A program made the translations under genes and the position numbers. Shown here piece by piece: positions 36,318 to 64,000 of a stretch of 64,000 bases of DNA. Under the pieces are notes generated by a model. That model was not told the origin of the DNA and ran no database searches. It saw nothing but the letters and a program-made list of their open reading frames with translations. This DNA comes from Paracoccus stylophorae. Lineage in GTDB: Bacteria > Pseudomonadota > Alphaproteobacteria > Rhodobacterales > Rhodobacteraceae. Numbering within the stretch: the first letter of the stretch is position 1; every line of letters begins with the position of its first letter. The stretch covers positions 2,151,001 through 2,215,000 of the forward strand of contig NZ_CP067134.1 of assembly GCF_028553765.1 (NCBI RefSeq), written 5' to 3'.

Positions 36318-36353
36318 ATCGGCAACACATGGGCAGGGTGCGAGTGAAGAAAA

Positions 36354-37625: not shown

Positions 37626-37667
37626 TCAGCGGCTCTCAGGGCTATTTGGTGGCTGGTGGGTCCCTAC

Positions 37668-37730: not shown

Positions 37731-37770
37731 CGCTACCGTGGCGGGGTGCCGATCTGATCGCAGCGGCGCG

Positions 37771-37911: not shown

Positions 37912-37986
37912 ACCGGGGACATCTCCATCTTTACGTTTGCGTCACTTTAGCCGTGCCGGAGCGTCCGACCGGAGGGTGATGAAAGA

Positions 37987-38150: not shown

Positions 38151-38205
38151 CCGCTCCGGTGCCGTGGCGGAACGATCAGGTTCCGGTCGGGCCGTGCCGC
38201 CCGCG

Positions 38206-38556: not shown

Positions 38557-38559
38557 GTC

Positions 38560-40887: not shown

Positions 40888-40897
40888 TTTTCGTTCT

Positions 40898-40910
40898 CAC
40901 TCGTTACAAA
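40898..40910 (-). promoter_or_regulatory. ACTCG box before the tape measure gene
   Basis: CACTCGTTACAAA on the plus strand (TTTGTAACGAGTG in the sense of the gene), 11 bases before the tape measure start and overlapping the terminase stop codon. The same box, with two variable bases, precedes the connector gene (44465), the portal gene (50416) and the integrase (52062). Confidence 0.4.
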
Positions 40911-42945: not shown

Positions 42946-43262
42946 CAGCCCACGGCCTCGCACCGGATTTCCAGCCCGCGTCTGCGCCCGATCTCTTGCA
43001 GCCCGACGATGTTCCACGCGCGGCCCGCATAGGTCAGCCGGTCGGCGGTCGTGATCGTCTGCACCGGCCAGCGGATCAGGAACACGGCGCGGTTCTTGTC
43101 GCCCACGATCTGGTTCAACAGGAATTCGTCGGTGCTGGCCTCCTTGACCTCGGCGCGGGTCGTCAGGATCGGCAACCAACGCTGCCGGGCGGTGCCGTTG
43201 TCGTTGACCAGCAGTTCCAGCCGCTCGATCTGGATGCGCGCCTGTAGCTTGCCGGCCCTCAT
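42945..43262 (-). CDS. phage head closure protein (head-tail adaptor)
   Basis: 105 residues of the SPP1 gp16/HK97 gp7-like head closure family: QARIQIERLELLVNDNGTARQRWLPILTTRAEVKEAS and IRWPVQTITTADRLTYAGRAWNIVGLQEIGRRRGLEI. ATG at 43262 overlaps the DUF3168 stop. It seals the filled head and joins the tail. Confidence 0.85.
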   Translation of the reverse strand: MRAGKLQARIQIERLELLVNDNGTARQRWLPILTTRAEVKEASTDEFLLNQIVGDKNRAVFLIRWPVQTITTADRLTYAGRAWNIVGLQEIGRRRGLEIRCEAVG

Positions 43263-43678
43263 TGATCCCTCCACCGGATCGTGGCGCGCAAGGCGACGGT
43301 GCCGAAACTGGCATTGGCGACAGCGCCGGCCTGATCCACCCAGGTCAGGTGCGGGCGCTGCCATTCGTCTATCTCGAAACCCTCGGCCTCGGGCGCGTCG
43401 ATCAGCGCCATGAAGACCCCAGCCGCGATGCCTTCGCCCGTGCCCGACCCATCGGCGTCGGCCCAGACATGCAGCATGGCCGAAACCTCGGCCACGATCT
43501 GCCCACCGGCAGCACGACCCAGGATTTCGGTGCGGGCCGGCGACAGGATGATGCTGGGGAATTCCGACGGTCGCCTGTCACCGGCGCGGATGCGCTCGGG
43601 CAGCACCGATGCGGAAATGAACGGATCGGCCAGCAGGCGGGCGCGGACTGCCTGTTGCAGGGCGAGGGACGGGATCAT
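43259..43678 (-). CDS. DUF3168 tail-completion-like protein
   Basis: 139 residues matching DUF3168 (SLALQQAVRARLLADPFI at the N-terminus, VWADADGSGTGEGIAAGVFMAL, and a beta-rich end with TVALRATIRW). These proteins correspond to tail terminator/tail completion proteins of siphophages. It overlaps both neighbouring genes by four bases. Confidence 0.85.
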   Translation of the reverse strand: MIPSLALQQAVRARLLADPFISASVLPERIRAGDRRPSEFPSIILSPARTEILGRAAGGQIVAEVSAMLHVWADADGSGTGEGIAAGVFMALIDAPEAEGFEIDEWQRPHLTWVDQAGAVANASFGTVALRATIRWRDQ

Positions 43679-44136
43679 GCCGACGCCTCCTTGATGGCTT
43701 TGCGGATCGCGCGGTTGATCCGGCGCTGGACGCGGGCGCGGTTCAAGCGCCAGCTAGGCAACAGGAACGGCTGCGGGTCGGTGCCGGGGTGCTGTGTGCC
43801 CGCGAACAGCCCGCCATTGACGTGCGGATCGGTGCCAAATTCGATCAGATGCGCATGGCGCACATCGGGCGCACCGGCCGTCACAGCACCCTGCAAATCG
43901 TGCAACTTGCGCCGCCCATCAGTGCCGTATGCGGGCGTCGTCTGGCCGGGGCCTGTCGCCTCGATCGACCGGATCAGATCGCCATCGTCCCGGCTCGCTT
44001 CGGCCAGCGTCTTCGCGTCGGCGGCGATCTCGTTCACGGATTTCTGGATGGCCGGCTGGACCTTGGCGACGATCTCGGCCGGAAGGGCAGCAAGGCGGCG
44101 GGCCAGCGCATCGCTGGATCGGCGGGTGATGCTCAC
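43675..44136 (-). CDS. HK97 gp10-like phage protein
   Basis: 153 residues of the HK97 gp10 type connector/tail-joining family. It has an N-terminal helix (LARRLAALPAEIVAKVQPAIQKSVNEIAADAKTLA), then the family's DLIRSIEA, HAHLIEFGT and PFLLPSWRLNR blocks. It overlaps the connector gene upstream and the DUF3168 gene downstream. Confidence 0.87.
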   Translation of the reverse strand: MSITRRSSDALARRLAALPAEIVAKVQPAIQKSVNEIAADAKTLAEASRDDGDLIRSIEATGPGQTTPAYGTDGRRKLHDLQGAVTAGAPDVRHAHLIEFGTDPHVNGGLFAGTQHPGTDPQPFLLPSWRLNRARVQRRINRAIRKAIKEASA

Positions 44137-44456
44137 GGCGTCACCTCGTCCTCGGCAGGCTCCACGGGCGCGACATAGCCGGTGATGCGGTCTTTCAGCG
44201 GCGACAGCAAATCAAGGACGCCGAAGGGCAACATATACTGATTGCTGAATGTGATGGCCTCGCGGGTCTCATACATCTGCGCCACCAGCAGCAACGCGGC
44301 CTGCGCCATCAGGGCGTTGTCGGGGTCGAAGGGCTGGCCGGTATAGGCGCTGATCCACATGGCGCTGACGTTGCCGTAGTGGGTCAGAATCTGGTCGTCT
44401 TGATCGTGGTCGATCACAAGATGCGCCCGGATCAGGGACAGCGGAAGGGCAGGCAT
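44133..44456 (-). CDS. phage gp6-like head-tail connector
   Basis: 107 residues of the HK97 gp6-like adaptor family that docks below the portal: LIRAHLVIDHDQDDQILTHYGNVSAMWISAYTGQPF and ALMAQAALLLVAQMYETRE. The ATG at 44456 is preferred over an upstream codon because it aligns with the family start. An ACTCG box lies just upstream, and this gene heads the connector-terminase run of overlapping genes. Confidence 0.82.
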   Translation of the reverse strand: MPALPLSLIRAHLVIDHDQDDQILTHYGNVSAMWISAYTGQPFDPDNALMAQAALLLVAQMYETREAITFSNQYMLPFGVLDLLSPLKDRITGYVAPVEPAEDEVTP

Positions 44457-44682
44457 ATCGGGGTCACTCGCAACAAAAAACTGGTATAGTTGCAAAAATA
44501 TCACACTCAGGCGTATTCCGCCAGATGGAAACTTATTTCATGGGTATCTTGTGCGCGCCTCACCACGCCGGTCCTGTCTGACGCCTCAAAGTCCGAGACC
44601 ACCCCGGCATCAGTAAGTGGTGTCTTGACGGCAGACTAATTTTCGGCAGAGTTAAAGCAGGCGGTCCTAAACAGAGGTGAAT

Positions 44683-45624
44683 ATGACCGAAAATCCAATC
44701 AAGGTAAACGTCAATATTCCGGGCGGGGCTATCGATAAAGCAACCGCTGACTTAATGCTCAAGGCGTTTGGTGGTAGTGCCGAAGAGGCAGGCGGATTAG
44801 TCGGCGATGTTATTGGAGTGCTCAGAGATCAAGTCAGCGCGTTCAGATTCAACAATCGTCGGCGAATAGCCAACCGAACACGCGCGAGGCTAATTGAACA
44901 AGGTATTTCAACCGAAGATGCGTTACCGCTCCCCAATCGTGAGATTGGTCCCGTCCTTGAAGGTATCTCCGACGTGGATCAGCCAGCTTTATCAGATCTA
45001 TGGTCGGGTTTAATTGCATCTGCTCTAAATCCGAATACGAATTTAACAGCAGATCGATCTTTTACTGGCACTATCAACCTGTTAAGTGAAGTTGATGCTC
45101 TCGTTTTTACTTTGCTGATTAATAGCAAAAAGATGCTTTCTTTAGTAGAAGAATATGCTCCAAAGACATCTCCATCCATTCAGAGCTTTGATGATAGGTG
45201 GCATGAGAAGACAGCAACGGTCAGCAATGAGGGCAGAAAGAAGTTATTCGATAGAATACAGCCAGCATGTTTATATTTTAACAATGCACTGGATCAAATT
45301 AGCCCCGAACAATTGAGCGCGTCTCTTGATAATCTTATCAGGCTAGGTGTGGTGACTTACGGCCCGGACAAGGCCACTGCTAGTCGTTTAGCAGCGTTCA
45401 GCACATCGATATCGAGAGAGAGACCAGAACATATAATCGGAAGAATATTAGAAGAATTACAGAAGCCGGGCAAGCTGCGCGACCGATGGAAAGAATACCC
45501 TATTGAGCGGGCTACCGGACGCTTGCCGAAATTTAACATTCACGCGACTGATTGGGGCGAAAGACTGGCGGCGGCATGTATGATTGAATTGCCGAAAGAG
45601 ATACAAGATACTATTGTTACTTGA
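44683..45624 (+). CDS. Abi-alpha (DUF4393) family protein, putative anti-phage gene
   Basis: 313 residues matching the Abi-alpha/DUF4393 family. The N-terminus has the helical FRFNNRRRIANRTRARLIEQGI, then PLPNREIGPVLEGISDVDQPALSDLWSGLIASALNP, the part that identifies the family. The C-terminal half is less conserved. Members have been linked to abortive infection. The gene is markedly AT-richer than every neighbour and lies on the opposite strand between two gene blocks of the element, the usual signs of a separately acquired cargo gene. ATG at 44683 has AGAGGTGA upstream. A possible -35 TTGACG lies about 65 bases upstream with no clear -10. Confidence 0.8.
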   Translation: MTENPIKVNVNIPGGAIDKATADLMLKAFGGSAEEAGGLVGDVIGVLRDQVSAFRFNNRRRIANRTRARLIEQGISTEDALPLPNREIGPVLEGISDVDQPALSDLWSGLIASALNPNTNLTADRSFTGTINLLSEVDALVFTLLINSKKMLSLVEEYAPKTSPSIQSFDDRWHEKTATVSNEGRKKLFDRIQPACLYFNNALDQISPEQLSASLDNLIRLGVVTYGPDKATASRLAAFSTSISRERPEHIIGRILEELQKPGKLRDRWKEYPIERATGRLPKFNIHATDWGERLAAACMIELPKEIQDTIVT

Positions 45625-45628
45625 TTTC

Positions 45629-46363
45629 CTAACCGTGCCCGCGCCTGATTGGTGGCGTGGTGATGGCGGCGGCGAAGGTCCAGCCGGAACGCAGGCGCTT
45701 GGCGATGGTCTGCTTGGCGATGCCGGTGCGCTCCGACCATTCCAGCAGGGTCAGGCGCTCGCCGTCGTGTTCATAGGTGGTTGTCGATGCTGATGGGCGG
45801 CGCTTGCGGCTGGCGGCGCTCTTGCGGGACATTACGATGTTGTAGGACGCGCGGGCCTCTGCGGCTGCATGCTGCTTGGCCTCTTGCCGTGTCAGCAGGA
45901 AGGCGCGATCCGTTGCCCAGCCGCGGTTGAGGCGGTTGTGCGCTAGTTGAAGATCAACGCCCGTGCGCTGGCACCATTCGGATGCGGTGCGCGTGGTGCC
46001 GTTGATCGTGAATTGCCGGTCGGGGAACGGGATGCGCTTGGGCTTGTCGTCGGACGCTGCCTTGCTGAAGGTCTGGCGGTTCATCTTGGTGCCGGCGATC
46101 AGGTCTTCGGGCGTGGGTGCCTGGGCGATCTTCACACGCATCCGGTCAACAAGTGCCTGCGCGTCGATCCCGGCAAGGGCGCAGACCTCGGACAGGTCTT
46201 TGCTGGGGGTCGTCAGGTAGCTGCGGGCCTCTGCGCAAACGCGCACCTTGTTGTGCGCCTCGAATTCGCCGGATGGGCCGATCAGCGCATCCTCGATGGC
46301 GGTCAGCAGGACGACCTGCCATAAGCGCTGGCGCGGGTCGGTGGCGGGTTCGCGTTCAAACAT
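45629..46363 (-). CDS. hypothetical phage protein with two NUMOD-like repeats
   Basis: 244 residues. The N-terminal half contains a helical ARSYLTTPSKDLSEVCALAGIDAQALVDRMR block often seen in phage proteins of unknown role. The C-terminal half repeats one motif twice: FTINGTTRTASEWCQRTGVDLQLAHNRLNRGW and YEHDGERLTLLEWSERTGIAKQTIAKRLRSGW, each a short strand plus helix-turn-helix, as in NUMOD/homing-endonuclease DNA-binding modules. It overlaps the HNH gene by eight bases, suggesting the two act together on DNA. Confidence 0.7.
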   Translation of the reverse strand: MFEREPATDPRQRLWQVVLLTAIEDALIGPSGEFEAHNKVRVCAEARSYLTTPSKDLSEVCALAGIDAQALVDRMRVKIAQAPTPEDLIAGTKMNRQTFSKAASDDKPKRIPFPDRQFTINGTTRTASEWCQRTGVDLQLAHNRLNRGWATDRAFLLTRQEAKQHAAAEARASYNIVMSRKSAASRKRRPSASTTTYEHDGERLTLLEWSERTGIAKQTIAKRLRSGWTFAAAITTPPIRRGHG

Positions 46364-46718
46364 CGGCCTTGGCCTCGGCCCGCTCCTGGCGCTGTTTGGC
46401 GCTGTTGTGGCAACGGGCGCACAAGGTTTGCAGGTTCGACCACGACAGCAGCAGCGCCTTGCGGCCCTTGTGGGGAACGATGTGATCGACCACCTCGCCG
46501 GGGTTTCCGCAGAATGCGCAGAACGGGTGCAGGCGCATGAATTCGGCCCGCAGCTTGCGCCATTCCACGCCGTATCCGCGCTGCGATGCCGTGGGCCTGT
46601 TCCTGTCGTGCTTGGCCTTGCGGGCGCGGGCCGCAGCGATCTGGCAGGCGCATTGCTGGCCCGCCGGAACGATCTGGCCGCAGCAACCCATCAGGCGTGG
46701 CGGGCGCGAATTAGCCAT
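46356..46718 (-). CDS. HNH endonuclease
   Basis: 120-residue HNH nuclease of the type found beside phage terminases: RRGYGVEWRKLR-like region (SQRGYGVEWRKLRAEFMRLHPFCAFCGNPGEVVDHIVPHKGR), with C-x2-C, VDHIVPH and a later LCARCHNSAKQ. In HK97-like phages it is needed for cos cleavage and packaging. Here it is about 3.4 kb upstream of the terminase genes in the transcription direction. It overlaps both neighbours. Confidence 0.9.
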   Translation of the reverse strand: MANSRPPRLMGCCGQIVPAGQQCACQIAAARARKAKHDRNRPTASQRGYGVEWRKLRAEFMRLHPFCAFCGNPGEVVDHIVPHKGRKALLLSWSNLQTLCARCHNSAKQRQERAEAKADV

Positions 46719-47355
46719 GCTGTTGCGCTTTCAGCCGGCGCAGCCCTTCGCGGTCAAATGCCGGGTCGTGGCCCTGCTCCTCGATCTGGCGCAGGCGTTC
46801 GGGCGTGTAGGTGTCCCGGTCGGTCTTGGTGGTGGTCTCGGCGGTGCCGGTCGCGCCGGGGGTCAGCTTCACCAGCCGGTCGATATGGGCGCGGAACGCC
46901 GTCTCGATCTCGGCGGGTGAAGCCGCCCACGTCTCTGTCGGCGTCCATCCCAGCCAGCCGGTCGCATACTGGAACAGTTGCGCGAAATACTCGCGCATGG
47001 GCATTGCAGCCCCCTCGTCACCGCCTTGGCTCGGCGCTTCGTCGGCGCTGTCTTCACCTGCTTGGATCAGGGCGGCTAAGATCGCCAGACAAGCCGCCTG
47101 CGCGTCAGGGACGAAACGCGACAGGGGCTTGCCGGCGATGGCGGCAAGAAGGGTTCGGGCTTCTTGCCGATCCGCAGCGGCGGCGAGGATCACCGTGCGG
47201 ATGGTCGTGAGGGATTGCGTCAGCAACCCCTCGTATGCGCCAGCGATCCCGCCGGGCATGTTCTCCAGCGTGGTCGCAGCCCGCAGCGATGCCCTGAGGG
47301 TGACGGTTCGTCCGCCATGCTCAAGGTCGATCTCATATGCGGGCTGCACCGACAT
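46711..47355 (-). CDS. tail assembly chaperone-like protein, two-part
   Basis: 214 residues. Part one (about 1-90) resembles GTA gp10-type tail chaperones: IDLEHGGRTVTLRASLRAATTLENMPGGIAGAYEGLL and a following helical segment. Part two (about 105-150, MREYFAQLFQYATGWLGWTPTETWAASPAEIETAFRAHIDR) resembles the separate small protein that follows it in such clusters. A C-terminal charged tail follows. ATG at 47355 lies four bases after the capsid stop. The domain assignment is by eye. Confidence 0.6.
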   Translation of the reverse strand: MSVQPAYEIDLEHGGRTVTLRASLRAATTLENMPGGIAGAYEGLLTQSLTTIRTVILAAAADRQEARTLLAAIAGKPLSRFVPDAQAACLAILAALIQAGEDSADEAPSQGGDEGAAMPMREYFAQLFQYATGWLGWTPTETWAASPAEIETAFRAHIDRLVKLTPGATGTAETTTKTDRDTYTPERLRQIEEQGHDPAFDREGLRRLKAQQHG

Positions 47356-47359
47356 GGGC

Positions 47360-48883
47360 TTAGACGGCCATCGCCAGCTTGCGGAACGCAGCGGCGCGCA
47401 CAACGGCGGCACCGACGCGGCGGCGGGCGTGGTAGCGCATCAGGCCATTGACGCGAACGCTGTAGGGGTCGGCCATCATCGCCAGCGCCAGCCGGTCATA
47501 GATCCGATACCCACGCTTGAAGTCGCCGAAGATCACCGGCTCGGCATCGGCGGCAATGTCGGGCATGTCCACGGCTTCGACCACCGGGCGACCAAGGATC
47601 GTCTCGGGCTGGCCGGCCTGATAGCTGGGCTGCCAGATATAGTTGCCGTCGCTGGTCTTCATGCTGCGGATGGCGGCAAGGGTCTGGCCGTTCATCACCC
47701 ACGTGCCGGCATTGCGATAGGTCGTGGGAAGCGCATACATCAGGGCGATCAGCGCATCCGGCGACAGCGCGGCGGTGTGGCCGTTATCGACGGTCTCGAT
47801 CTCCGCGTTCGCCATGAAGCCCGAAGGTTCCAGCGCGGTGTTGCCGTGAACGAACGAAAGCGCCTCCTTCTGGCCGAAGTCCTCTGCCAGCGCGAGGGTG
47901 ACTTCCGGCAGCACGTTGTCGCTGTCTTCCGCCAGTTGAAGCGACAGATCGACATAGGTTGCCAGTTCCTTCACCGCGATCTCGGCCTGATCGAAGGTCG
48001 GTTCGCTGCCGGTGCGCGCGGCGGTCTCGCCGACCCACGCGGCGTTGGTGATCGCGGTGCGCTTGGGCAAGACCACGCTGGCGCTGGTCGTGCTGCGCAC
48101 ATCGGCGATGGCGCGGATCGGGCTGAATTCCACCAGATTGCGAAGGAATTCGGCGCTGACATCCTCGGGGGCCAGGACATGGTTCGCGGTGTCGCTGGCC
48201 GTGGTCAGGGCCTTGCTTTCCGCGCTGCCGGTGGACAGGTAGTTGATGAAGCTCTTGCGCTCCACGTCGCCCTGCACGATGGCCGGTGCGCCGGGGCGGT
48301 TGCCCTTGGCTTCCAGCTTGTCCAGGCGCGACAGCACCGCGTCCAGCTTCTTCTGATCGAAAACCGGCGCGTCATTGGCCGGGGTGGTCTCGGCCTTGGG
48401 GGCCAGTTCTTCGTTCTCCACGGTGATATTCTCCTGTGATGTGGATTGCGATTTCAGGGACGTGATCTGTGCGCCGGGGTGGCATGGCACCGCGACAACA
48501 GAGATTTCATGCAGGGCCAGCTTGGCGATGCTGCGGCCCTTGGGGTTGCGGGTGGCCTCCTTGGTGACAAAGCCGATGCTCAACCCGCTGACGGCACCGG
48601 CGCGGATCATGGCGCGGACCTCGCGGGCGCGCTCCACGTCATCGACCAGCAGCTTGCCCTTGACGGTCAGGCCGGTGTCGGTCTCCGCGATCTCGTTCCA
48701 GACGCCGATCACCTGCCCTTGGTCATGGGCGAACAGCATCGGCAGGCTGGCGGGCTGGTCGAACGCGCCCTTCTCGATCACGTCGCCCACGCGGTCGGGT
48801 CCAGAAAATGGCCAAGCCGTTCCGGTGATCTCGCCTGCGTCGGTGGCGGTTAGCTGGGCTTTGACCTCGATAAAGTCAGTCAT
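47360..48883 (-). CDS. fused prohead protease / HK97-type major capsid protein
   Basis: 507 residues combining two usually separate proteins. Residues about 1-140 are an HK97 prohead protease: GTAWPFSGPDRVGDVIEKGAF, catalytic His in LPMLFAHDQGQVIGVW, Ser in AVSGLSIGF, and ISVVAVPCHPGAQI. A coiled-coil scaffold-like delta region (KKLDAVLSRLDKLEAKG) lies near 175-190. Residues about 205-507 are the HK97 capsid fold (FINYLSTG, VLAPEDVSAEFLRNLVEFSPIRAIADVRSTTSASVVLPKR, WVMNGQTLAAIRSMK, IFGDFKRGYRIYDRLALAMM). No stop or shift separates them. Confidence 0.92.
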   Translation of the reverse strand: MTDFIEVKAQLTATDAGEITGTAWPFSGPDRVGDVIEKGAFDQPASLPMLFAHDQGQVIGVWNEIAETDTGLTVKGKLLVDDVERAREVRAMIRAGAVSGLSIGFVTKEATRNPKGRSIAKLALHEISVVAVPCHPGAQITSLKSQSTSQENITVENEELAPKAETTPANDAPVFDQKKLDAVLSRLDKLEAKGNRPGAPAIVQGDVERKSFINYLSTGSAESKALTTASDTANHVLAPEDVSAEFLRNLVEFSPIRAIADVRSTTSASVVLPKRTAITNAAWVGETAARTGSEPTFDQAEIAVKELATYVDLSLQLAEDSDNVLPEVTLALAEDFGQKEALSFVHGNTALEPSGFMANAEIETVDNGHTAALSPDALIALMYALPTTYRNAGTWVMNGQTLAAIRSMKTSDGNYIWQPSYQAGQPETILGRPVVEAVDMPDIAADAEPVIFGDFKRGYRIYDRLALAMMADPYSVRVNGLMRYHARRRVGAAVVRAAAFRKLAMAV

Positions 48884-49199
48884 TGGTCTGCACCTCGTCA
48901 GCGCCCATCCATCGGGCCGTGATAACGTCCAGCGCCAGCGGCAGGATTTCCCCGATGGGCCGGTTCTTGGCGTAGGTCTCGACCAGCCGGGAAGCCTCTT
49001 GCGGATCGGTGTTCGCGCCGATCAGGCCAAGCCGGATGATCTCGACCAGATCGACCAGCCGGAAGTCGCTGCGGGACAGGCGAACGAACAGCGCGCCGAT
49101 CCCGGTGCTGGTCTTGGTTTCCAGTTCGGCGATCATCGGATCGGACAGCAGGAAGTCGCGTTCGCCATCGCCGAAGAAAGCCCGGTGGGTGATATTCAT
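48876..49199 (-). CDS. GTA gp10/TAC-like small phage protein
   Basis: 107 residues. RAFFGDGERDFLLSDPMIAELETKTSTGIGALFVRL followed by a DLVEIIRLGLIGA helix matches the gene-transfer-agent tail-chaperone family (Phage_TAC_11-like). It sits between portal and protease, not next to the tape measure as usual. It overlaps the portal gene (ATGA) and the protease/capsid gene (eight bases). Confidence 0.7.
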   Translation of the reverse strand: MNITHRAFFGDGERDFLLSDPMIAELETKTSTGIGALFVRLSRSDFRLVDLVEIIRLGLIGANTDPQEASRLVETYAKNRPIGEILPLALDVITARWMGADEVQTND

Positions 49200-50410
49200 G
49201 CGTCATCATCCAGTGCGGGATTGGCCGGGGCGGTCGTCCCGGTGCTGGTGTAGGGGTTGTCCAGGCTGTCGCCACCTTCGATGGGCGGCATGTTCATGCG
49301 GGCGCGGACCTCATTGGCGGTCATGGCACCCATGCTGCGATACTGCCCGAACGCAGCCGCACGGGCCGCGTGATCGACCGACAGCATGTCGTCCACGTTA
49401 CACTCGATGTAGCGGGTGGCGCGTTCCTCGGGCCTCAGCAGGCAACGGCTGTAAGCCGCCTGCCATCGGGCAATCCACGGGCGAAGGGTGCCGGTCAGGA
49501 ATTCACGCTGCGCCTGTTCGTAGTTGCTCCAGGTGGCGCGGCTCATCTCGAACAGCGATGCGGGCGGGACGCCGAACGCCCGCGCGATCTCGCGGATTTG
49601 TTCGCGCCGGACCTCGGAAAATTCCGCGTCGGCCAGCTTCATCGCGATCTCGTGGAAGGTCATACCTTCATCCAGGATCGCGGTCGAACCGGCCTGATCC
49701 CCGCCATGCGACCGGAACCAGCTTGAAGCGATCTTCTTTGCGCCTTCCGCGTCCAGCTTGTTCGGGTGCTGGATCACACCAGAAGGTCTGCCGCCATTGG
49801 CGAAGAAACCCGCCATGTGCGCCTCGGCGGCGATGGCAAGCCCGATGGCCTCTTTCGCCAAGGTGATCGGGCTGACGCCTCCAAGGGCCTGAATGTGCAG
49901 CACGTCCTGAAACGGCAGGACGTGTTCCCCGCCATCTTTCAGCCGGATGCGGTAGGACGGTTCGCCGAAGTCGTCATGCTCGATGCTGACCGCGCCGGGG
50001 TCCATGCGCAGCATGAAGACCGGGCGTCCGTCTGCATTGCGGGCGACCTGCGCGAAGCCGTGGCCCCGCAGCAAGGCGTCGGCGGTCAGTTGTTCGCGAA
50101 ACGCCTCTGCGCTTGTCCAGTCATTGGCGTGATCGTGAACCAGCGCGAAGGCCGGGTGATCCTTCGCGGCCTCGCGGTCCTCTTGGCGATAGACCTTGAA
50201 GGGCAGCGTGGCGACGGATTCGGCAATGAGGGAAACGGCGCGGCGAACAGCAGGGACGCGCATCGCGGTTGTGGCGCTGACGCTGACGCCGGATGCGACG
50301 GGCGCGACACCGAACAGCCCAAGCAGCCGGTCGTCGGGCAGGGCCAGTGATTTTTCTTCGATGGGCTGGCCTTGGCCGAAGGCTCGGCCAAGGCGCGACA
50401 GGATGGACAC
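49196..50410 (-). CDS. HK97-family phage portal protein
   Basis: 404 residues forming the dodecameric DNA gate of the capsid. Typical blocks: AVRRAVSLIAESVATLPFKVYR, NDWTSAEAFREQLTADALLRGHGFAQVAR, ISPITLAKEAIGLAIAAEAHMAGFFANGGRPSGVIQHP-like stretch, and SRATWSNYEQAQREFLTGTLRPWIARWQAAYSRCLL. It is the first gene of the overlapping block portal-TAC-capsid-TAC-HNH-hypothetical. An ACTCG box lies six bases upstream of the ATG. Confidence 0.93.
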   Translation of the reverse strand: MSILSRLGRAFGQGQPIEEKSLALPDDRLLGLFGVAPVASGVSVSATTAMRVPAVRRAVSLIAESVATLPFKVYRQEDREAAKDHPAFALVHDHANDWTSAEAFREQLTADALLRGHGFAQVARNADGRPVFMLRMDPGAVSIEHDDFGEPSYRIRLKDGGEHVLPFQDVLHIQALGGVSPITLAKEAIGLAIAAEAHMAGFFANGGRPSGVIQHPNKLDAEGAKKIASSWFRSHGGDQAGSTAILDEGMTFHEIAMKLADAEFSEVRREQIREIARAFGVPPASLFEMSRATWSNYEQAQREFLTGTLRPWIARWQAAYSRCLLRPEERATRYIECNVDDMLSVDHAARAAAFGQYRSMGAMTANEVRARMNMPPIEGGDSLDNPYTSTGTTAPANPALDDDA

Positions 50411-50483
50411 TCGGATACTCGCTACAAACTACTGTGGCAAATATGCCACACATGCAGGATTTGTGCAAGCCGAATGTGTTCCG

Positions 50484-52055
50484 TCAGGGCAGCTTGTAGT
50501 CGGGCAGCGCGTCAATGACGCGGGCCTTCGCCACCACCGAAACGTCGCCGTAGTCATCCGATGCCGTCTTGCCCGCGTGGCCTTGGATCGCGTCTGCGAT
50601 CCGATCCGACAACCCCAGTTCCCGCGTCAGCGACTTGAATCTGTGCCGCCAGCCATGCGACGGCTGCACCCCTTCCGGCACAAGATCAGCCTCTTGAAGC
50701 CATTGCGATACGCGACCGGCGGTCACGCGCGCCGATGCAAGGTATCTCTCCGGCTTCTTGCCGCCATGAAACAGCGGGCCGGCAGATGCCGAACGGATGA
50801 AGTCGGCAAAGCCCAATGCGACCACCTGCCGGTGTAGCGGAACGTCGCGATAGCCGCCCGCCTTGACGCTGCCAGCGTCGGGCGTGATCCTGACCACCCA
50901 TCGGTCGCCCTCTTGTCGAACGTCCTCTTTCCGTAGCTGCGCCATTTCAGCGACACGCGCGCCGGTGAAGGCGCAGAGGATCGGCAACCAGCGTTTCGCA
51001 GCCGTGATGTGGGCGCTCTCGCGGTTGGCCGGGTTGTCTGCCTCTTTGGGTGTGTAGCTGGTCGAGAATTTCAGGACCGCGACGGCCTCGGGTGTGGTGT
51101 AGCCGCGTTCGCGGGTGCGCTGCGCCTTCGCGACGGGTTGCCGAACGGCCTCTGCCTCATTGGTGGGCAGGCGGTCGTTCTCGAACGCCCACCGCAGCAG
51201 GGCGCGGACGCTGGCAAGATACTTGTTCGCGATGGTCTTGGGCGATTTGCCTTCGACCAGCAGCTTGTCGCGCCAGTCCAGCAAGTTCCGTTTCGTGATC
51301 TGGCGCGCGTCGGAATGACCCAGGAATTTGACCAGATGCAGGATCGCAGCTTCCCATCCTCGCGCGCCGTCCTTGTGCTTGCCCAAGGCTTGCCGCGTGG
51401 CGATGTAGTCCTTGAACAGCGCCTTGATCGGCACCGGGTCTGGCTGGTCGTCAGGCGGCGCTGCGTTGGCGATAAGCGGATGCTCGGGCTTGCCGGCGAA
51501 GTTGCCTTCGTCGCGCTCCACGGTGCGCGCAAGCGCCTCTAGTTCACCAACAGCGATGGCGCGGGCGATCATGCGCCATTCGTCGGTGGCCGGCGCTGCC
51601 GTATGGTTGCCGGTCTGCCGGAACCGCTCGACCTGCTCACCGACAAGGACGGCAAGGCGCTGGTCGTCAAGGGTGCCGGCGATGGCGGCGCGAAGGTCGG
51701 CAACATGCTGGTCGTCTATCGACAGGCTCGGCCAGCGCGGATCGTTCCGAAGCGCCTCGTCCATCGCGATTCGCTGCCGGTAGTGGCTGGCGGCGATCTG
51801 GTCGGGCGTGAGGGGGTAACGGCCCACCTGCGCCACCATAGCGCCCTGTGACGCGGCCTTGCGCTCGGCCAGCGCCAATTCGTGTTGCAGGACCGCGACG
51901 GCACCGGGCAAGTGCTTCATCGCCGTGCGCCGATCAGGGCCTAGCGGATGGCGAAGTTCGGTCTTGCCGACGATCCGGCGAAGGTCTTTCGGCACGACCA
52001 GCCGGGCGAAGAATCTGCCGTCGCGGTTGAGAAGGTATCGGGTTGCGCCTGCCAT
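50484..52055 (-). CDS. int: tyrosine-type site-specific integrase
   Basis: About 523 residues, catalysing integration at the tRNA-Thr 3' end. An N-terminal SAM-like core-binding domain spans about 215-320. The catalytic domain has the first Arg in AFTGARVAEMAQL, HGWRHRFKSL (His-x-x-Arg), QGHAGKTASDDYGD with the second His and the likely nucleophilic Tyr. ATG at 52055 is preferred; a GTG three codons earlier is possible. The promoter region holds the inverted repeat TCGTT-TGT-AACGA. No excisionase gene is recognisable nearby. Confidence 0.93.
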   Translation of the reverse strand: MAGATRYLLNRDGRFFARLVVPKDLRRIVGKTELRHPLGPDRRTAMKHLPGAVAVLQHELALAERKAASQGAMVAQVGRYPLTPDQIAASHYRQRIAMDEALRNDPRWPSLSIDDQHVADLRAAIAGTLDDQRLAVLVGEQVERFRQTGNHTAAPATDEWRMIARAIAVGELEALARTVERDEGNFAGKPEHPLIANAAPPDDQPDPVPIKALFKDYIATRQALGKHKDGARGWEAAILHLVKFLGHSDARQITKRNLLDWRDKLLVEGKSPKTIANKYLASVRALLRWAFENDRLPTNEAEAVRQPVAKAQRTRERGYTTPEAVAVLKFSTSYTPKEADNPANRESAHITAAKRWLPILCAFTGARVAEMAQLRKEDVRQEGDRWVVRITPDAGSVKAGGYRDVPLHRQVVALGFADFIRSASAGPLFHGGKKPERYLASARVTAGRVSQWLQEADLVPEGVQPSHGWRHRFKSLTRELGLSDRIADAIQGHAGKTASDDYGDVSVVAKARVIDALPDYKLP

Positions 52056-52061
52056 GTCACA

Positions 52062-52090
52062 CACTCGTTTGTAACGAAATTTGTAACATC
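52062..52090 (-). promoter_or_regulatory. integrase upstream operator-like repeats
   Basis: CACTCG followed by the perfect inverted repeat TCGTT-TGT-AACGA (52066-52078) and a further TTTGTAAC. The TTTGTAACGA half-site is the same as in the boxes before the tape measure and portal genes. Confidence 0.4.
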
Positions 52091-52145
52091 AGAATGACCA
52101 AAGCCCCTGCAATGCAAGGGCTTTTTGACAAATCAATAGGTTAGA

Positions 52146-52220
<75 letters not shown>

Positions 52221-55186: not shown

Positions 55187-55220
55187 ACCTATCTGTTGGA
55201 CAGGCAAAGTGGAGGGTTCC

Positions 55221-58200
55221 ATGAATATCGACCTGACACGCCGCAGCTTTCTGAGGCTGGCGGGTGCGGGCGTTGCGGCAACCTCGCTTGGGGCCATGGG
55301 CTTCGGCGAGGCAGAGGCGGCCGAGGCGGCGCATGTGCGCGCCTTCAAGCTGACCACGACGACCGAGGCGCGCAACACCTGCACCTATTGCTCGGTCGCC
55401 TGCGGGATCATCATGTATTCCAAGGGCGATGTGAACGCCGGCGAGAAAGCCGACCTGATCCACATCGAAGGCGATGCGGACCACCCGACGAACCGCGGCA
55501 CGCTGTGTCCCAAGGGCGCGGCGCTGAAGGATTTCGTCAAGTCCGAAAGCCGCCTGACCCGCCCGCGTTACCGCGCCGCCGGCGCGTCCGAGTTTCAGGA
55601 CATTTCCTGGGACGATGCGCTGGACAAGATCGCCCGCGCGCTGAAGGACGACCGCGACGCGAACCTGTTGCAGGTCAACGAGGCCGGGGTGCCGGTCAAT
55701 CGCTGGACGACCACCGGGTTCCTGGCCGCCTCGGCCACCACGAACGAAACCGCATGGCTGACCTACAAGACGGTCCGGTCCATGGGGATCGTCGGATTCG
55801 ATAATCAGGCGCGCGTCTGACACGGCCCTACGGTAGCCAGTTTGGCTCCAACTTTTGGCCGTGGCGCGATGAGCAACGCCTGGACCGACATCAAAAGCAC
55901 CGATCTGGTGATCGTGATGGGCGGCAACGCCGCCGAAGCCCATCCCTGCGGCTTCAAATGGGTGACCGAAGCCAAGGCGTCGCGTGGCGCCAAGCTGATC
56001 GTGGTCGATCCGCGCTATACCCGCACCGCCAGCGTGTCGGATTACTATGCCCCGATCCGCCCGGGCAGCGATATCGCCTTCCTCATGGGGGTGATCCGCT
56101 GGTGCATCGCCAACGACAAGGTGCAGTGGGAATACGTGACCAACTTCACCAACGCCGCCTTGCTGGTGAAAGAGGGCTTCGGCTGGTCGGACGGCCTGTT
56201 CACCGGCTATGACGAGGAAAAGCGCGACTATGACAAGGCCGACTGGGATTACCAGATCGGCGAGGATGGCTTTGCCCGCGTCGACATGACGTTGCAGGAC
56301 CCGCGCTGCGTGTGGAACCTGCTGAAGACGCATGTGGACGTCTATACGCCCGAATTCGTCGAGAATGTCTGCGGCACGCCCAAGGACAGGTTCCTGCAGA
56401 TCTGCGAGATGATCGGCGAATGCAGCGCGCCCGACAAGGTCATGACGTCGATGTATGCGCTTGGCTGGACGCAGCATTCCAAGGGCGCCCAGAACATCCG
56501 CGGCATGGCGATGCTGCAGCTGATCCTGGGCAATATCGGGATGCGCGGCGGCGGGATGAACGCGCTGCGGGGTCACTCCAACATCCAGGGCCTGACCGAT
56601 CTGGGCCTGATGTCGAACCTGATCCCCGGCTATCTCAGCATTCCGACGGAAAAGGAACCGGACTGGCAGACCTATATGTCCTCGCGCGAGTTCAAGCCGC
56701 TGCGACCGGGGCAGACCAGCTATTGGCAGAACTATTCCAAGTTCATGGTCAGCTTCATGAAGGCCATGTGGGGCGATGCCGCGACCGAGGAGAACGACTG
56801 GGCCTATCACTATCTGCCCAAGCTGGATGTGCCGACCTATGACATCCTGCGCATGTTCGAGCTGATGAAGCAGGGTCAGGTGAACCTGTATTTCTGTCAG
56901 GGCTTCAACCCGCTGATGGCGTTCCCGAACCGGGCCAAGCTGACCGAGGCTTTGTCCAAGCTGAAGCTGCTGGTCGTCATGGACCCGCTTGAGACGGAAA
57001 CGGCGCATTTCTGGGAAAACCACGGCGCGTATAACGACGTGGACCCCGCTGCGATCCAGACCGAGGTGCTGGAACTGCCCTCGACCTGCTTTGCCGAGGA
57101 TGAAGGCGCGCTGGTCAATTCGGGCCGCTGGCTGCAATGGCACTGGCCGGGGCCGACCCCGCCGGGCGAGGCCAAGCACGACACCTGGATCATGGCCAAC
57201 CTGTTCCAGAAGGTGCGCAAGCTGTATCAGGAGGAAGGCGGCGTCTTTCCCGACCCGATCCTGAACCTGACATGGGACTATCAGGACCCGCTTGACCCGT
57301 CATCGGCGGAACTGGCCCGCGAAATGAACGGCCGCGCGCTGCGCGACGTGGCGGACCCGGCCAATGAGGGCGCGACCCTGGTGGCCGCCGGCAAGCAGGT
57401 GAAGAACTTCACCCAGTTGCAGGACGACGGCTCGACCATGTGCGCCTGCTGGATCTTCTCGGGCTGCTGGAACGAGGACGGCAACAACATGGCGCGGCGG
57501 GACAATTCCGATCCCGACGATGTCGGCATGTTCCTGAACTGGTCCTTTGCCTGGCCGCTGAACCGGCGGATCCTGTATAACCGCGCCTCGGCCGACCTGC
57601 AGGGCCGTCCGTGGGACCCCGACCGCAAGCTGATCGAATGGACCGGCGAGAAATGGGAAGGCTATGACGTGCCCGATATCGGCGTCACGTCCAAGCCGGG
57701 CGAGGTCATGCCGTTCATCATGAACCAGGAGGGCACGTCCCGCCTGTTCACCCGCGGCATGATGCGCGACGGGCCGTTCCCCACCCATATGGAGCCGTTC
57801 GAGGCGCCCATTGCCAACGTGCTGAACCCGAAGATGCGCGGCAACCCGGTCAGCCGGGTGTTCGTGGACGACGCCGAACAATTCGCCACCAGCGAAGAGT
57901 TTCCCCTTGTCGCCACCTCGTATCGCCTGACCGAGCATTTCCACTACTGGACCAAGCACAACAAGGTGAACGCCTCGTTGCAGCCCGAGTTCTTCGTGGA
58001 AATCAGCGAGGAATTGGCGGCCGAGCGCGGCATCACCAGGGGCGGGCGCGTGCGCGTCTGGGGCAAGCGCGGCGAGGTCTGGGCCAAGGCCGTGGTGACC
58101 AAGCGGATCAAGCCGATGCAATGCGACGGCAAGACCGTGCATGTCGTCGGCATCCCGCTGCACTGGGGCTTCAAGGGCGCGGCCAAGAAGGGCTGGGGGC

Positions 58201-58304
58201 CGAACACGCTGACGCCCTTTGTCGGTGACGCCAACGTGGAAACGCCCGAATTCAAGGCGTTCCTGGTCAATATCGAACCTGCAGCAGAGGAGCCGGTGGC
58301 ATGA
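55221..58304 (+). CDS. fdoG: formate dehydrogenase-N/O type, major (alpha) subunit, selenocysteine-containing
   Basis: Periplasm-facing catalytic subunit oxidising formate to CO2 with a bis-MGD molybdenum or tungsten cofactor. About 1027 residues when the in-frame TGA at 55818-55820 is read as selenocysteine 200. Tat signal [12 protein letters not shown]; the [4Fe-4S] site is CTYCSVAC with a distal TLCPKGA; Sec is in [23 protein letters not shown], exactly where FdnG/FdoG/FdhF carry it. Reading continues without interruption in the same frame to 58304. A SECIS-like hairpin follows the TGA. ATG at 55221 with GGAGGG. Automatic callers will split this gene or call it a pseudogene. It overlaps the beta subunit gene (ATGA). 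Confidence 0.95.
55818..55849 (+). promoter_or_regulatory. UGA(Sec) codon with bacterial SECIS hairpin
   Basis: TGACACGGCCC then the hairpin GG-T-AGCC, loop AGTTT, GGCTCC (55832-55849). The stem pairs GG/CC and AGCC/GGCT with a single bulged T, and the apical loop begins A-G-T. Bulge, GU in the loop and the 11-base distance from the TGA match the E. coli fdhF/fdnG SECIS recognised by SelB. Confidence 0.88.
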
Positions 58305-59263
58305 GCGTTGCACCTCAACCGACCACATCCGCCTCGAACCCGCCGGTGCAGCCGCTGGAATCGAACCTGCTGCCGTCCGACGTCGTCCGTGCCTCGGCGA
58401 CGCCGGATCTGCCGCAGCCGGATCGTCAGCTGACCCGCGTGGCCAAGCTGATCGATGTCAGCAAATGCATCGGCTGCAAGGCGTGCCAGTCCGCCTGCGT
58501 CGAATGGAACGACACCAACCCGGCCATCGGCGAGAATACCGGCGTCTACGAAAACCCGCACGACCTGACGCCGGACATGTTCACGCTGATGCGGTTCAGC
58601 GAATGGGAAAACCCGGCCACGAACGAGCTGGAATGGCTGATCCGCAAGGATGGCTGCATGCATTGCGAGGACCCGGGCTGCCTGAAGGCCTGCCCGGCCC
58701 CCGGCGCCATCGTGCAGTATTCCAACGGCATCGTGGATTTCATCCACGAGAACTGCATCGGCTGCGGCTATTGCGTGACCGGCTGCCCGTTCGACATTCC
58801 GCGCATCAGCAAGGTCGATCACAAAAGCTATAAATGCACGCTGTGTTCCGACCGCGTGGCGGTGGGTCAGGGTCCGGCCTGCGCCAAGGCCTGCCCGACC
58901 AAGGCCATCGTCTTCGGCACCAAGGACGACATGCTGGCCCATGCCAACGAACGGGTCGAGGATCTGAAATCGCGCGGCTATGACAATGCCGGCATCTACG
59001 ATCCCGAAGGGGTGGGCGGCACCCATGTGTTCTATGTGCTGCATCACGCCGACAAGCCCGGCATCTACAGCGATCTGCCCGAAAACCCGCGCATCTCGCC
59101 CATTGTCGAGGGCTGGAAAGGCGTTACCAAGACCGCCGGCATGGCGGCCATGGGGGTTGCGGCGGCCGGGGCCGTGCTGATGGGGCTGTTCACGCGCAAC
59201 AAGGTCGACCCCGAAGAGGAAGAGGCCGCCGAACGCCTGGTGCAGGATCGGGAGGAAGGGTGA
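58301..59263 (+). CDS. fdoH: formate dehydrogenase iron-sulfur (beta) subunit
   Basis: 320-residue electron-transfer subunit with four ferredoxin-type cysteine clusters: [41 protein letters not shown] and [15 protein letters not shown], carrying four [4Fe-4S] centres. A C-terminal transmembrane helix ([18 protein letters not shown]) anchors it and is followed by an acidic tail, as in FdnH. It overlaps both the alpha and gamma genes by a few bases. Confidence 0.95.
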
Positions 59264-59949
59264 TGCGCAGACCTTTCTATTCCGACCCGGCCGATCATAT
59301 CGAAAGCACCGATCCGGTGCGCGTCAGCCGCTATCGCGGCATCACCCGGCTGAACCACTGGGTGACGGCGTTTTCGCTGATCGTCCTGGCGCTGTCGGGT
59401 CTGGCGTTCTTTTCGCCGTCGCTTTATTTCCTGACCGGCTTGTTCGGCGGCGGGCAGATCGCCCGCTGGCTGCACCCGATCGTGGGGGTGGTGCTGTTCT
59501 TCAGCTTCCTGCTGCTGTTCCTGCAGATGTGGCGGCTGAACCTGCCCAAGCCCGAAGACACGACATGGCTTGCCAATATCGACGGCGTGGTGACGGGAAA
59601 CGAGGAAAAGCTGCCCGAATTGGGCAAGTACAATGCCGGGCAGAAGTTCATCTTCTGGGCGATGTCTGTGCTGATCGTGGTGCTGATCGTGTCGGGCATC
59701 ATGATGTGGGAACAGTATTTCGGCGGCATCGTGTCGATTCCCACGCGGCGCGTCGCCACGCTGATCCACTCGATTGCGGCGGTTGCCATCATCCTGGTGT
59801 TCATCCTGCACGTCTTTGCCGCGTTCTGGGTGCGCGGCACGCTGCGCGCCATGACGCGCGGCGACGTGACCGGCGGATGGGCCTGGCGCCATCACCGCAA
59901 ATGGCTGCGTGAAGTCGCTGGACGTTCGGGCAGCGGCCCGGCAGAATAG
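59263..59949 (+). CDS. fdoI: formate dehydrogenase cytochrome b556 (gamma) subunit
   Basis: 228-residue membrane subunit passing electrons to quinone. Four transmembrane helices, with heme b histidines in ITRLNHWVTAFSL, ARWLHPIVGV, ATLIHSIAAVA and VFILHVFAAFWVRG. The ATG shares a base with the beta-subunit stop (TGATG) and has GGAGGAAGG upstream; a GTG one codon earlier is an alternative. Confidence 0.94.
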   Translation: MRRPFYSDPADHIESTDPVRVSRYRGITRLNHWVTAFSLIVLALSGLAFFSPSLYFLTGLFGGGQIARWLHPIVGVVLFFSFLLLFLQMWRLNLPKPEDTTWLANIDGVVTGNEEKLPELGKYNAGQKFIFWAMSVLIVVLIVSGIMMWEQYFGGIVSIPTRRVATLIHSIAAVAIILVFILHVFAAFWVRGTLRAMTRGDVTGGWAWRHHRKWLREVAGRSGSGPAE

Positions 59950-59994
59950 GCGACGAACCCCCAGACCCGGTGGCCCGTGCGGCCCGGAGAAATC

Positions 59995-60909
59995 ATGCCC
60001 GCATCCATTCAGCCCGATCCTTCCCTCATCGGCGGCGTTCCCACGCCGCCGCTGGCCTTCCTGCCCGACCCCGACCGCCTGTTCGCCAGCCGCGCGCGGC
60101 GTTTCGCGTTTCTGGCCGAACATGACGCGCGGCTTGGGCCGTATCTGGCGTTTCTGGCCGAACTGACCACGTTGCAGGCGCGGCTGGTGGACGAATTGCC
60201 CGACCCCGATCCGATCCCGACGGATCGGATCGCGCAGGCGCGCGCGCATCGCATGCCGCCCATCGACCGCGATGCGCTGGCCACCGACGAAATGCTGCAC
60301 CGGACCCTGACCGCGCTGTGCGATCAGGCCCAGTCGCTGGACATGCCGCAGCCCGCCAAGCTGGCCTTGCAAGCGGTGCTGGCCTCGGATCTGGCGGACC
60401 GGCACTGGCTGCTGGAAAACATCCTGTCCGACCGCATCCCCGAAGACAGCGCCGCGCCGCACCTGTTCGCCGCCGCCGCGGTGCAGATCCACATGGCACG
60501 GCTGGCCGCGACGCTGGACGCCGACGCGCTGGTGCCGATCCGCGCCGGGATCTGCCCGGCCTGCGGCGGACGGCCCGCGACCTCGACCGTGATGGCCGCG
60601 CAGGGGATCGAGAATGTGCGCTATGCGACCTGCGCCTGCTGCGCCACAAGGTGGAACGAGGTGCGGATCAAGTGCCTGTCCTGCGGATCGACCAAGGGCA
60701 TCAGCTATCGCTCGGTCGAGACGGACGAGGCAGCGGTCAAGGCCGAGCTGTGTTCGGAATGCGACAGCTGGATCAAGATCATGTATCTGGCCCGCAACCA
60801 CAGCCTCGATCCGATTGCCGACGATGTGGGCAGTCTGGGGCTGGATCTGCTGATGAAGGATACCGGGTTCAGCCGAGGCGGGGTGAATCCCTATCTGGCC
60901 GGGTATTGA
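59995..60909 (+). CDS. fdhE: formate dehydrogenase accessory protein FdhE
   Basis: 304-residue cytoplasmic maturation factor that binds the catalytic subunit before Tat export. It has four CxxC pairs typical of the rubredoxin-like sites: ICPACGGRP, CACCATRW, CLSCGSTKG and CSECDSW, and an N-terminal helical domain. ATG at 59995 with CGGAGA is preferred over a GTG 18 bases upstream. Its stop shares a base with the selA start. Confidence 0.93.
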   Translation: MPASIQPDPSLIGGVPTPPLAFLPDPDRLFASRARRFAFLAEHDARLGPYLAFLAELTTLQARLVDELPDPDPIPTDRIAQARAHRMPPIDRDALATDEMLHRTLTALCDQAQSLDMPQPAKLALQAVLASDLADRHWLLENILSDRIPEDSAAPHLFAAAAVQIHMARLAATLDADALVPIRAGICPACGGRPATSTVMAAQGIENVRYATCACCATRWNEVRIKCLSCGSTKGISYRSVETDEAAVKAELCSECDSWIKIMYLARNHSLDPIADDVGSLGLDLLMKDTGFSRGGVNPYLAGY

Positions 60910-62285
60910 TGGCCGGGTTTCGTGCCCTGCCCTCGGTCGATCAGTTTCTGCAATCCGACGCCGGACAGGCCCTGATCGCCGAACATGGCCGCGCCATGGT
61001 CACGGATGCGGCGCGCGCCGGGCTGGACGCCGCGCGCGCGGCGATCCGGCAGGGTGCCTCGGGCGACGATCAGGCCGCGCGGCTGCCCGCGCATGTCGCA
61101 TCCGAACTGGCGGCGGCAACGCGGACCGGGCTGCGGCCGGTGCTGAACCTGACGGGAACCGTGCTGCACACCAATCTGGGCCGGGCGATCCTTGCGCCGC
61201 AGGCGATCCAGGCCGCCGCGTCCGCGATGGCCGCGCCGATGGCGCTGGAATTCGATCTGGACGGCGGCGGGCGCGGGCAGCGCGACGATCATCTGCGTGG
61301 CTTGCTGCGCGAACTGACCGGGGCCGAGGACGCCACCATCGTCAACAACAACGCCGCCGCCGTGCTGATCGCGCTGAACACGCTGGCGCAGGGCCGCGAG
61401 GCAATCGTGTCGCGGGGCGAGCTGATCGAGATCGGCGGCGCGTTCCGCATGCCCGACATCATGGCCCGCGCCGGCACCCGGCTGATCGAGATCGGCACCA
61501 CCAACCGAACCCATCCGGGCGATTACGAGGAGGCCATCGGTGCCGAGACCGGGGTCATCCTGAAAGTCCACACCTCGAACTATCGGATCGAGGGGTTCAC
61601 GGCCCAGGTGGCCGCACCGCGCCTGGCCCGGATCGCCGCCGCGGCCGGGGTGCCGCTGCTGAACGATCTGGGTGCCGGATCGCTGGTCGATCTGTCGATC
61701 TTCGGGCTGCGGCGCGAGCCGACCGTGGCCGAGGCCGTGGCCGAGGGCGCCGATCTTGTCACCTTCTCGGGCGATAAGTTGCTGGGCGGGCCGCAGGCGG
61801 GCTTCATCGTCGGCCGGCGCGACCTGATCGCGCAGATCGACCGCAATCCGCTGAAACGCGCCCTGCGGCTGGACAAGATCCGCATCGCCGCGTTGCAGGC
61901 GACGCTGAGCCTTTATCGCGACCCCGACCGGCTGGCCGAGCGGCTGCCGACGCTGCGCCACCTGTCGCGCCCCAGGGACAGCATCGCCGCGCAGGCGGCC
62001 CGGCTGGCACCGCAGATCGACGCGCTGCTGGCCCCGATCGGGTTTCACACGGCGTCCTGCGACTGCGCCAGCCAGATCGGGTCGGGCGCGTTGCCCGTCG
62101 ACACGATCCCGTCGGCCGGGCTGCGGCTGACCGGTCAGGGGGGCGATGCGCCCGACCGACTGTCGGCCCGGCTGCGCGCCCTGCCCCGCCCGGTCATCGG
62201 CCATATCCGCGACGGCTCGCTGATCCTCGATCTGCGCTGCCTTGACGAGGATCGCGATCTGCTGGACGCGCTGGCGGCGCTATGA
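60909..62285 (+). CDS. selA: L-seryl-tRNA(Sec) selenium transferase
   Basis: PLP enzyme of 458 residues converting Ser-tRNA(Sec) to Sec-tRNA(Sec) with selenophosphate. [64 protein letters not shown] and the PLP lysine K290 in [14 protein letters not shown] match SelA closely. The start ATG shares its A with the fdhE stop (TGATG), and its stop overlaps selB (ATGA). Confidence 0.97.
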
Positions 62286-64000
62286 TCGTCGGGACGGCGG
62301 GGCATATCGACCACGGCAAGACCGCGCTGGTCCGTGCGCTGACCGGCACCGATGCCGACCGGTTGGCCGAGGAAAAGGCCCGCGGCATCACCATCGATCT
62401 GGGCTTTGCCTATGCCGATCTGGGCAGCGGCACCATCACCGGCTTTGTCGATGTGCCGGGGCATGAACGGCTGATCCACACCATGCTGGCGGGCGCGGGC
62501 GGCATCGACCTTGCGCTGCTGGTCGTGGCCGCCGATGACGGCGTCATGCCGCAGACGCGCGAACACGTGGCGATCCTGTCCTTGCTGGGGATCGCGCAGG
62601 GGATCGTCGCGCTGACCAAGTGCGATCTGGTCGATCCCGCACGCCAACAGGCGGCTGCGCAGGAAATTCGCACGACCCTGGCCGGCACCGCGCTGTCTGA
62701 CGCGCGGGTCCTGCCGGTGTCGTCGCAGACCGGCGCGGGGATCGATGCGCTGCGCACGGCGCTGATCGCGGCCGAGGCGCGGCTGGTCGCGCGCCGCGCC
62801 GACGGGCCGTTCCGCCTTGCGGTGGATCGCAGCTTTACGCTGGCGGGGACCGGAACGGTGGTGACGGGAACGGTCATCAACGGCCGCGTGGCGGTGGGCG
62901 ATCAGGTGATCGTCAGCCCATCTGGCCTGCCGGCGCGCGTGCGCGGCATCCACACCCAGAACCGTCCCGCCGAAACCGGCATCGCCGGCCAGCGTTGCGC
63001 GCTGAACCTTGCCGGCGAGGCGATGGGAAAGGACGCCATCCGGCGCGGCGATGTCGTGCTGTCGCCCGAGATCCACGCCCCGAGCGACCGGATCGACGCG
63101 ATGCTGACCGTCCTGCCGTCCGAGGCGAAAGCGGTCGGAACCTGGTTCCCCGCCCGCCTGCACAGCCACGCGGCCGAAATCGGTGCGCGCATCGTGCCGC
63201 TGTCCGATCCTGTCGCGCCCGGTTCCAGCGGACCGGTGCAGATCGTGCTTGACCGGCCCATCGCCGCGTCCGTGCAGGACCGGTTCATCCTGCGCGACGT
63301 CTCGGCCAGCCGCACCATCGGCGGAGGCCGGTTTCTGGACCTGCGCGCCCCGGCGCGCAAACGCCGCAGCCCGGACCGGCTGGCCCTGATCGCGGCGGCG
63401 CAGCACGACGATCCGGCCGCGGCGCTGTCGGCCATGCTGGCCATCGCGCCGGTCGATCCCGGCATTTTCGCCCGCGACCGGGGCCTGTCGCCCGCCGCGC
63501 TTGCGCAGGCGCTGTCGGTCAGTCGCGCACAGCGGATCGGCGATCTTGCCGTCTCGGCCACCCAGATCGACACTTTGCGCGCAGATCTGCACCGCAACCT
63601 GACGGATTTCCATGACCAGAACCCGGACCTGCCGGGGCTGGCGCGCGAAAAGCTGCGCCTGTCGCTGTCCCTGCGCCTGCCCAAGCCCGCGTTCCTCGCA
63701 TTCTTGCAGGACGAGGCCGGGGCGGGACGGGTCGTGATGGACGGCGCCTTCGTCCGCCTGCCCGGCCACGAGGTCCGGTTAAGCCAGGAAGATGAGGCGC
63801 TGTGGCAGCGGGTCGCGCCGGCGCTGAGCGGCGAAAAACGCTTTCGCCCGCCCCGCGTCCGCGACTTCGCAGCGGAGTTCGGCGTCGATGAACGAGAGAT
63901 CCGGCGCGTCCTGAAGCTGACGCAAAAGCTGGGGCGGACCGACCAGATCGCGCGCGATCATTTCTTTGCCCGGCCCGTCACGGCCGAAATGGCGCAGATC
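62282..64000 (+). CDS. selB: selenocysteine-specific elongation factor SelB (3' end outside window)
   Basis: GTPase that delivers Sec-tRNA(Sec) to UGA codons marked by a SECIS. 573 codons are visible, open to the window edge; full proteins have about 620 residues. EF-Tu-like G domain: G1 GHIDHGKT (7-14), G3 DVPGHE, G4 TKCD. Domains 2 and 3 follow ([15 protein letters not shown]). The C-terminal winged helices that bind SECIS have begun ([13 protein letters not shown], then [31 protein letters not shown]). Start ATG overlaps selA stop. Confidence 0.97.

Follow-up and report, generated by a model that had tools for sequence, protein, structure and literature searches.

Predicted selenocysteine-containing formate dehydrogenase encoded across an in-frame TGA codon in Paracoccus stylophorae

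Within the window (the whole stretch of 64,000 nucleotides that was analyzed), a cluster beginning with fdnG almost certainly encodes a respiratory, membrane-bound selenocysteine formate dehydrogenase of the FdnGHI/FdoGHI type, in which UGA codon 200 of the alpha subunit would be read as selenocysteine (Sec). The frame runs on the forward strand from an ATG at 55221 to 58304 and is interrupted by a sole internal stop, TGA at 55818-55820 (codon 200), flanked by the residues QARV-U-HGPTVAS; the next in-frame stop is the TGA at 58302-58304. The claim of the initial annotation that two open stretches lie in one frame with a TGA alone between them is therefore borne out. The features of the cluster are listed below.

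55211..55216, + strand: Shine-Dalgarno-like GGAGGG, 4 bases upstream of the fdnG ATG, read from the sequence
55221..58304, + strand: fdnG/fdoG-type formate dehydrogenase alpha subunit, 1027 amino acids with U200 (TIGR01553, PF04879, PF00384, PF01568, 1kqf_A)
55818..55820, + strand: in-frame TGA, predicted to be read as selenocysteine, residue 200 (frame reading, 1kqf alignment, TGA in 80/80 other loci, top-ranked among at least 595)
55815..55873, + strand: SECIS hairpin (Rfam SECIS_3, RF01989), starting at the TGA codon; 77.4 bits, gathering score 63
58301..59263, + strand: fdnH/fdxH, iron-sulfur beta subunit (TIGR01582); its ATG overlaps the fdnG stop (ATGA)
59260..59949, + strand: fdnI, cytochrome b gamma subunit (TIGR01583); start GTG 59260 or ATG 59263, overlapping the fdnH stop
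59977..60909, + strand: fdhE, formate dehydrogenase accessory protein (TIGR01562)
60906..62285, + strand: selA, L-seryl-tRNA(Sec) selenium transferase (TIGR00474); start TTG 60906 or ATG 60909
62282..64000, + strand, cut by the window's end, with the ORF continuing to 64288: selB, Sec-specific elongation factor; 420 bits, cut-off 242
64186-64282, just past the window, within the selB ORF: tRNA-Sec (selC), anticodon TCA (ARAGORN; 85.1 bits, Rfam start 64187)

The joined translation matches the formate dehydrogenase-N alpha subunit model TIGR01553 over residues 5-1019 with 1403.9 bits (cut-off 814.2), and comprises, in order, a 4Fe-4S domain (PF04879, residues 50-107), a molybdopterin domain (PF00384, 111-597), and a dinucleotide-binding domain (PF01568, 896-1014). 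Along with the 4Fe-4S domain, the N-terminal end carries the signal TRRSFLRL, which we take to be a twin-arginine-like motif. The half before the TGA (residues 5-199) covers model positions 2-194 and the half after it (827 residues) covers positions 196-1008, so that the gap consists of nothing but the TGA position. Because both halves fit one family model at consecutive positions, chance adjacency of two ORFs was rejected. The initial annotation had proposed aligning the joined translation to E. coli FdnG, and the match with that protein (1kqf_A) extends from end to end, from residues 4-1021 of the query to residues 2-1015 of the chain, at 1393 bits. The modified residue X of 1kqf_A, presumably selenocysteine, stands opposite codon 200, and the TGA thus falls at the active-site Sec position, where it had been placed. 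The genes of the beta and gamma subunits adjoin fdnG, and both score above the cut-offs of their models (TIGR01582 and TIGR01583). The cluster therefore resembles E. coli FdnGHI (1kqf) in full alignment of the alpha subunit, in the place of the modified residue and in the order GHI, which we take to be that of E. coli; unlike in E. coli, fdhE, selA, and selB follow directly. Assignment to FdnG covers the N and O types alike, which are indistinguishable with these models.

The predicted SECIS hairpin was matched by SECIS_3 with an E value of 1.6e-16 in the search of the window, and it was the sole match found in the 3.64-Mb genome, for which 150 of 2486 first-look candidates were scored. Among 14 control genomes, E. 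coli alone gave a match. At the same site, a match to SECIS_2 was set aside, as its 25.8 bits lie below the gathering score of 70. Covariation was assessed on the 59 bases from 81 loci (80 relatives and our own), which amount to 57 distinct sequences. Pair cells were standard in 93.3% of cases, compared to 25-49% when the partner was slid by 1-3 columns, and four pairs had changed on both sides, compared to 0 or 1 after sliding. One of these four, pair 15-42 of the Rfam structure, was standard in just 21 of the 57; pair 8-48 was A-C in 20/57 and pair 12-44 was A-G in 5/57. Folded alone, the 63-base strand had only a moderate advantage over shuffles (z of -1.86, with 7 of 200 shuffles folding equally well), too little to persuade by itself. 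Of 738 windows of 19 codons, the one in which the 80 relatives show the most restricted codon choice begins at codon 196, and codons 190-200 are where ten of the twelve most restricted windows begin. The other two begin at codons 737 and 741; they are nearly as restricted and comprise 8 columns each.

Genes for the Sec-decoding machinery follow in the same cluster. The models for fdnH, fdnI, fdhE, and selA (TIGR01582, TIGR01583, TIGR01562, and TIGR00474) each scored above cut-off, and selD lies apart at C1:1550467-1551393 (424 bits), so that selA, selB, selC, and selD are all found in the genome. At four junctions (fdnG/fdnH, fdnH/fdnI, fdhE/selA, and selA/selB), the stop codon of one gene overlaps the start codon of the next, as in an operon. 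In the genome search for tRNA-Sec, 150 of 680 first-look candidates were scored; a second match above the Rfam cut-off, at 48.5 bits, proved to be a tRNA-Ser with anticodon tga and was discarded.

We propose that the ribosome translates fdnG up to UGA codon 200, where SelB with Sec-tRNA(Sec) would bind the SECIS hairpin starting at the UGA and insert selenocysteine without termination. Translation would then continue as far as the true stop, the UGA at 58302-58304, with which the start of fdnH overlaps. Selenocysteine 200 is the expected Mo/W ligand, FdhE would aid maturation, and the twin-arginine-like signal suggests that FdnG is exported. Electrons from formate should flow via FdnH and FdnI to quinone. 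We infer the insertion of Sec, the export, the cofactor, and the path of the electrons from known families.

Two readings in which the TGA is no Sec codon have to be set against this scheme. Under the standard code, the frame does end at 55818-55820, and the TGA could be a real stop that arose by recent nonsense mutation, leaving a 199-residue fragment and a pseudogene remainder. However, TGA occupies the position of codon 200 in all 80 fetched relatives, with titles that include Paracoccus, Roseomonas, Microvirga, Ensifer, Xanthobacter, and others. As the 80 top-ranked of at least 595 candidates, these lean to close relatives. Each of the 80 matched frames holds one stop and no further one, and both the SECIS and the Sec machinery are present, which makes a nonsense mutant highly improbable. 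Still less credible is a sequencing error in a Cys codon, TGC or TGT. A Cys paralogue is indeed known in 3 of the 125 genomes of the genus, but TGA stands in 80 other records (again the top 80 among at least 595), and the Cys paralogues are just 53-54% identical, with no selA or selB match in the surrounding 15 kb retrieved for each. The reading as selenocysteine, as the initial annotation had it, is thus supported by homology across the TGA, by the SECIS, by the sel genes, and by 80/80 relatives.

The Cys paralogues are the stop-free copies of genomes G009, G053, and G092, each with Cys at the TGA position, and at their loci (L095, L094, and L093, respectively) fdnG is accompanied by fdnH, fdnI, and fdhE. 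Since G009 and G053 also carry a TGA copy and SelB, Cys and Sec forms coexist as paralogues. G092, which is 84% complete, is the sole Cys-only genome, and neither SelB nor tRNA-Sec was found in it above cut-off. The initial annotation had named, as a case against the selenoprotein, close relatives with a Cys codon plus a frameshift; these were looked for and not found, and the three Cys copies have no frameshift.

A census of the genus covered 125 of the 150 genomes sought, our own included. An fdnG match above cut-off was found in 98 and a copy with one TGA in 97 (own included); the location of the TGA was inspected for G034, G041, and our own, and the remaining genomes were counted by their single TGA. 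SelB was above cut-off in 97 of the 125, including 95 of the 97 one-TGA genomes. The two one-TGA genomes lacking SelB above cut-off are G034 and G105, with best tRNA-Sec matches of 48.2 and 51.0 bits (cut-off 47), about the level of our own tRNA-Ser (48.5). In G034 (locus L096, G034:C11:50001-64000), selB was matched in two pieces with the first 56 residues missing, and the fdhE match was confined to the second part of the gene; this is possibly decaying Sec decoding, or an assembly error. The G105 assembly is a draft in about 620 contigs. Conversely, G041 and G104 have SelB without a TGA copy above cut-off; their fdnG was matched in pieces, with the TGA in the N-terminal piece. At L097 (G041:C10) and L098 (NZ_CP040764.1), fdnG appears as two overlapping pieces in different frames with the TGA kept, and the frameshift of G041 is far from the retained TGA. 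The plasmid record NZ_CP040764.1 lists no fdnG CDS. G018 has only short fdnG pieces and no SelB above cut-off.

A further possibility, compatible with the selenoprotein rather than exclusive of it, is that read-through is conditional, such that the 199-residue product would build up when selenium or Sec-tRNA(Sec) is lacking and Sec insertion would also gate fdnH. Gating of fdnH translation is proposed in view of the ATGA in which the end of fdnG and the beginning of fdnH overlap, and, according to Mukai 2021 (PMC8124441), SelB and release factor 2 compete at UGA. The fdxH genes of P. aestuarii and P. liaowanqingii, however, begin 5-6 bases past the end of the fdnG match, so such coupling would not be general. 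On present sequence evidence, we consider conditional read-through rather unlikely.

The reading as a selenoprotein is correct and amounts to ordinary textbook biology, with no new principle. Sections of Zhang 2006 (PMC1794560) describe selA-selB-selC operons in Sec-decoding Alphaproteobacteria, with a neighboring fdhA as the only selenoprotein, and sections of Mukai 2021 (PMC8124441) describe fdoGHI-selABC clusters in these orders; in the available text of the latter, Paracoccus has a single mention, in a figure legend. As far as those accounts go, the present cluster shares with the alphaproteobacterial ones (PMC1794560, PMC8124441) the order selA-selB-selC, the neighboring Sec fdhA and the nesting of selC in selB, and nothing essential differs; selD lies elsewhere in the present genome. 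The fdnG of P. aestuarii plasmid p190534 (NZ_CP067171) has 82.9% DNA identity across the whole gene, within the same annotated order of fdnG-fdxH-gamma-fdhE-selA-selB. That cluster is plasmid-borne and has putative selenate transporter genes as neighbors, whereas the present one is on a 3.63-Mb contig, where a GNAT acetyltransferase gene lies upstream of fdnG in the window and an EPSP-synthase-family gene also adjoins the cluster. On two Paracoccus plasmids (L098:5616-8680 and L099:4721-7751), ABC transporter genes lie just upstream of fdnG, one of them annotated as a putative selenate-binding protein.

The view that automatic annotation loses the selenoprotein, also put forward in the initial annotation, holds in part. 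It does not always do so, because the P. aestuarii orthologue is annotated by NCBI as a full-length fdnG of 3081 bases; among the plasmid records in the matches listed, 10 of 20 give an fdnG name at the place of the match and the other 10 give none, in a gene table that omits pseudogenes. As far as sequence settles the matter, the internal stop is read as Sec, and the appropriate annotation is a single full-length selenoprotein for fdnG and a Sec-decoding status for the genome.

Just past the window, the selB ORF at 62282-64288 (L091:10282-12288) encloses the entire tRNA-Sec at 64186-64282 (L091:12186-12282). Nesting of tRNA-Sec in the selB frame is a published trait, according to sections of Mukai 2021 (PMC8124441). 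We surveyed the arrangement at 83 loci, of which 57 have selC near selB, 11 have no selC within 1500 bases, and 15, among them the reversed L096, have no selB match on the + strand. In 43 of the 57 (own included) selC is nested, in 13 selB stops before selC, and in one it stops inside selC. The phase of selC relative to selB is identical in all 43 nested loci across 20 lengths of the spacer, while in the 14 non-nested loci phases 0, 1, and 2 occur 4, 3, and 7 times. From about SelB residue 626 onward, reading in the other two phases would likewise pass selC without a stop in 29 and 27 of the 43, so stop codons alone fail to explain the phase. Whether the overlap is actively maintained, with the frame through tRNA-Sec under selection and the SelB extension or the coupling of the genes mattering, is finely balanced, and we would entertain it tentatively. 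A switch between SelB and tRNA-Sec was proposed in the sections of Mukai 2021 cited above (PMC8124441). Maintenance is favored by the single phase in 43/43 nested loci although other phases are often open; against it, 14 of the 57 are not nested, SelB coding sequence forms part of the spacer, and the 43 nested loci are related by descent and therefore not independent. Moreover, only 8 of the 20 Paracoccus-titled or own loci are nested; of the others, selB ends ahead of selC in 5, selC is not nearby in 6, and the locus contains no selB in 1. Directly past the end of selB-selC, at L091:12305-12352 (L091:10282 corresponding to 62282), three tandem 16-base units (GGTCAGCAATCGGGCA) were noted by eye.

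Elsewhere in the window, a prophage-like element of about 16.5 kb spans 35669-52174. It contains portal, capsid/protease, terminase, and tape-measure genes, together with an integrase-like gene slightly under the Pfam cut-off. The element is bounded by a 30-base repeat at 35669-35698 and 52145-52174 (93%), the second copy of which lies at the 3' end of a tRNA-Thr (52146-52220, - strand).
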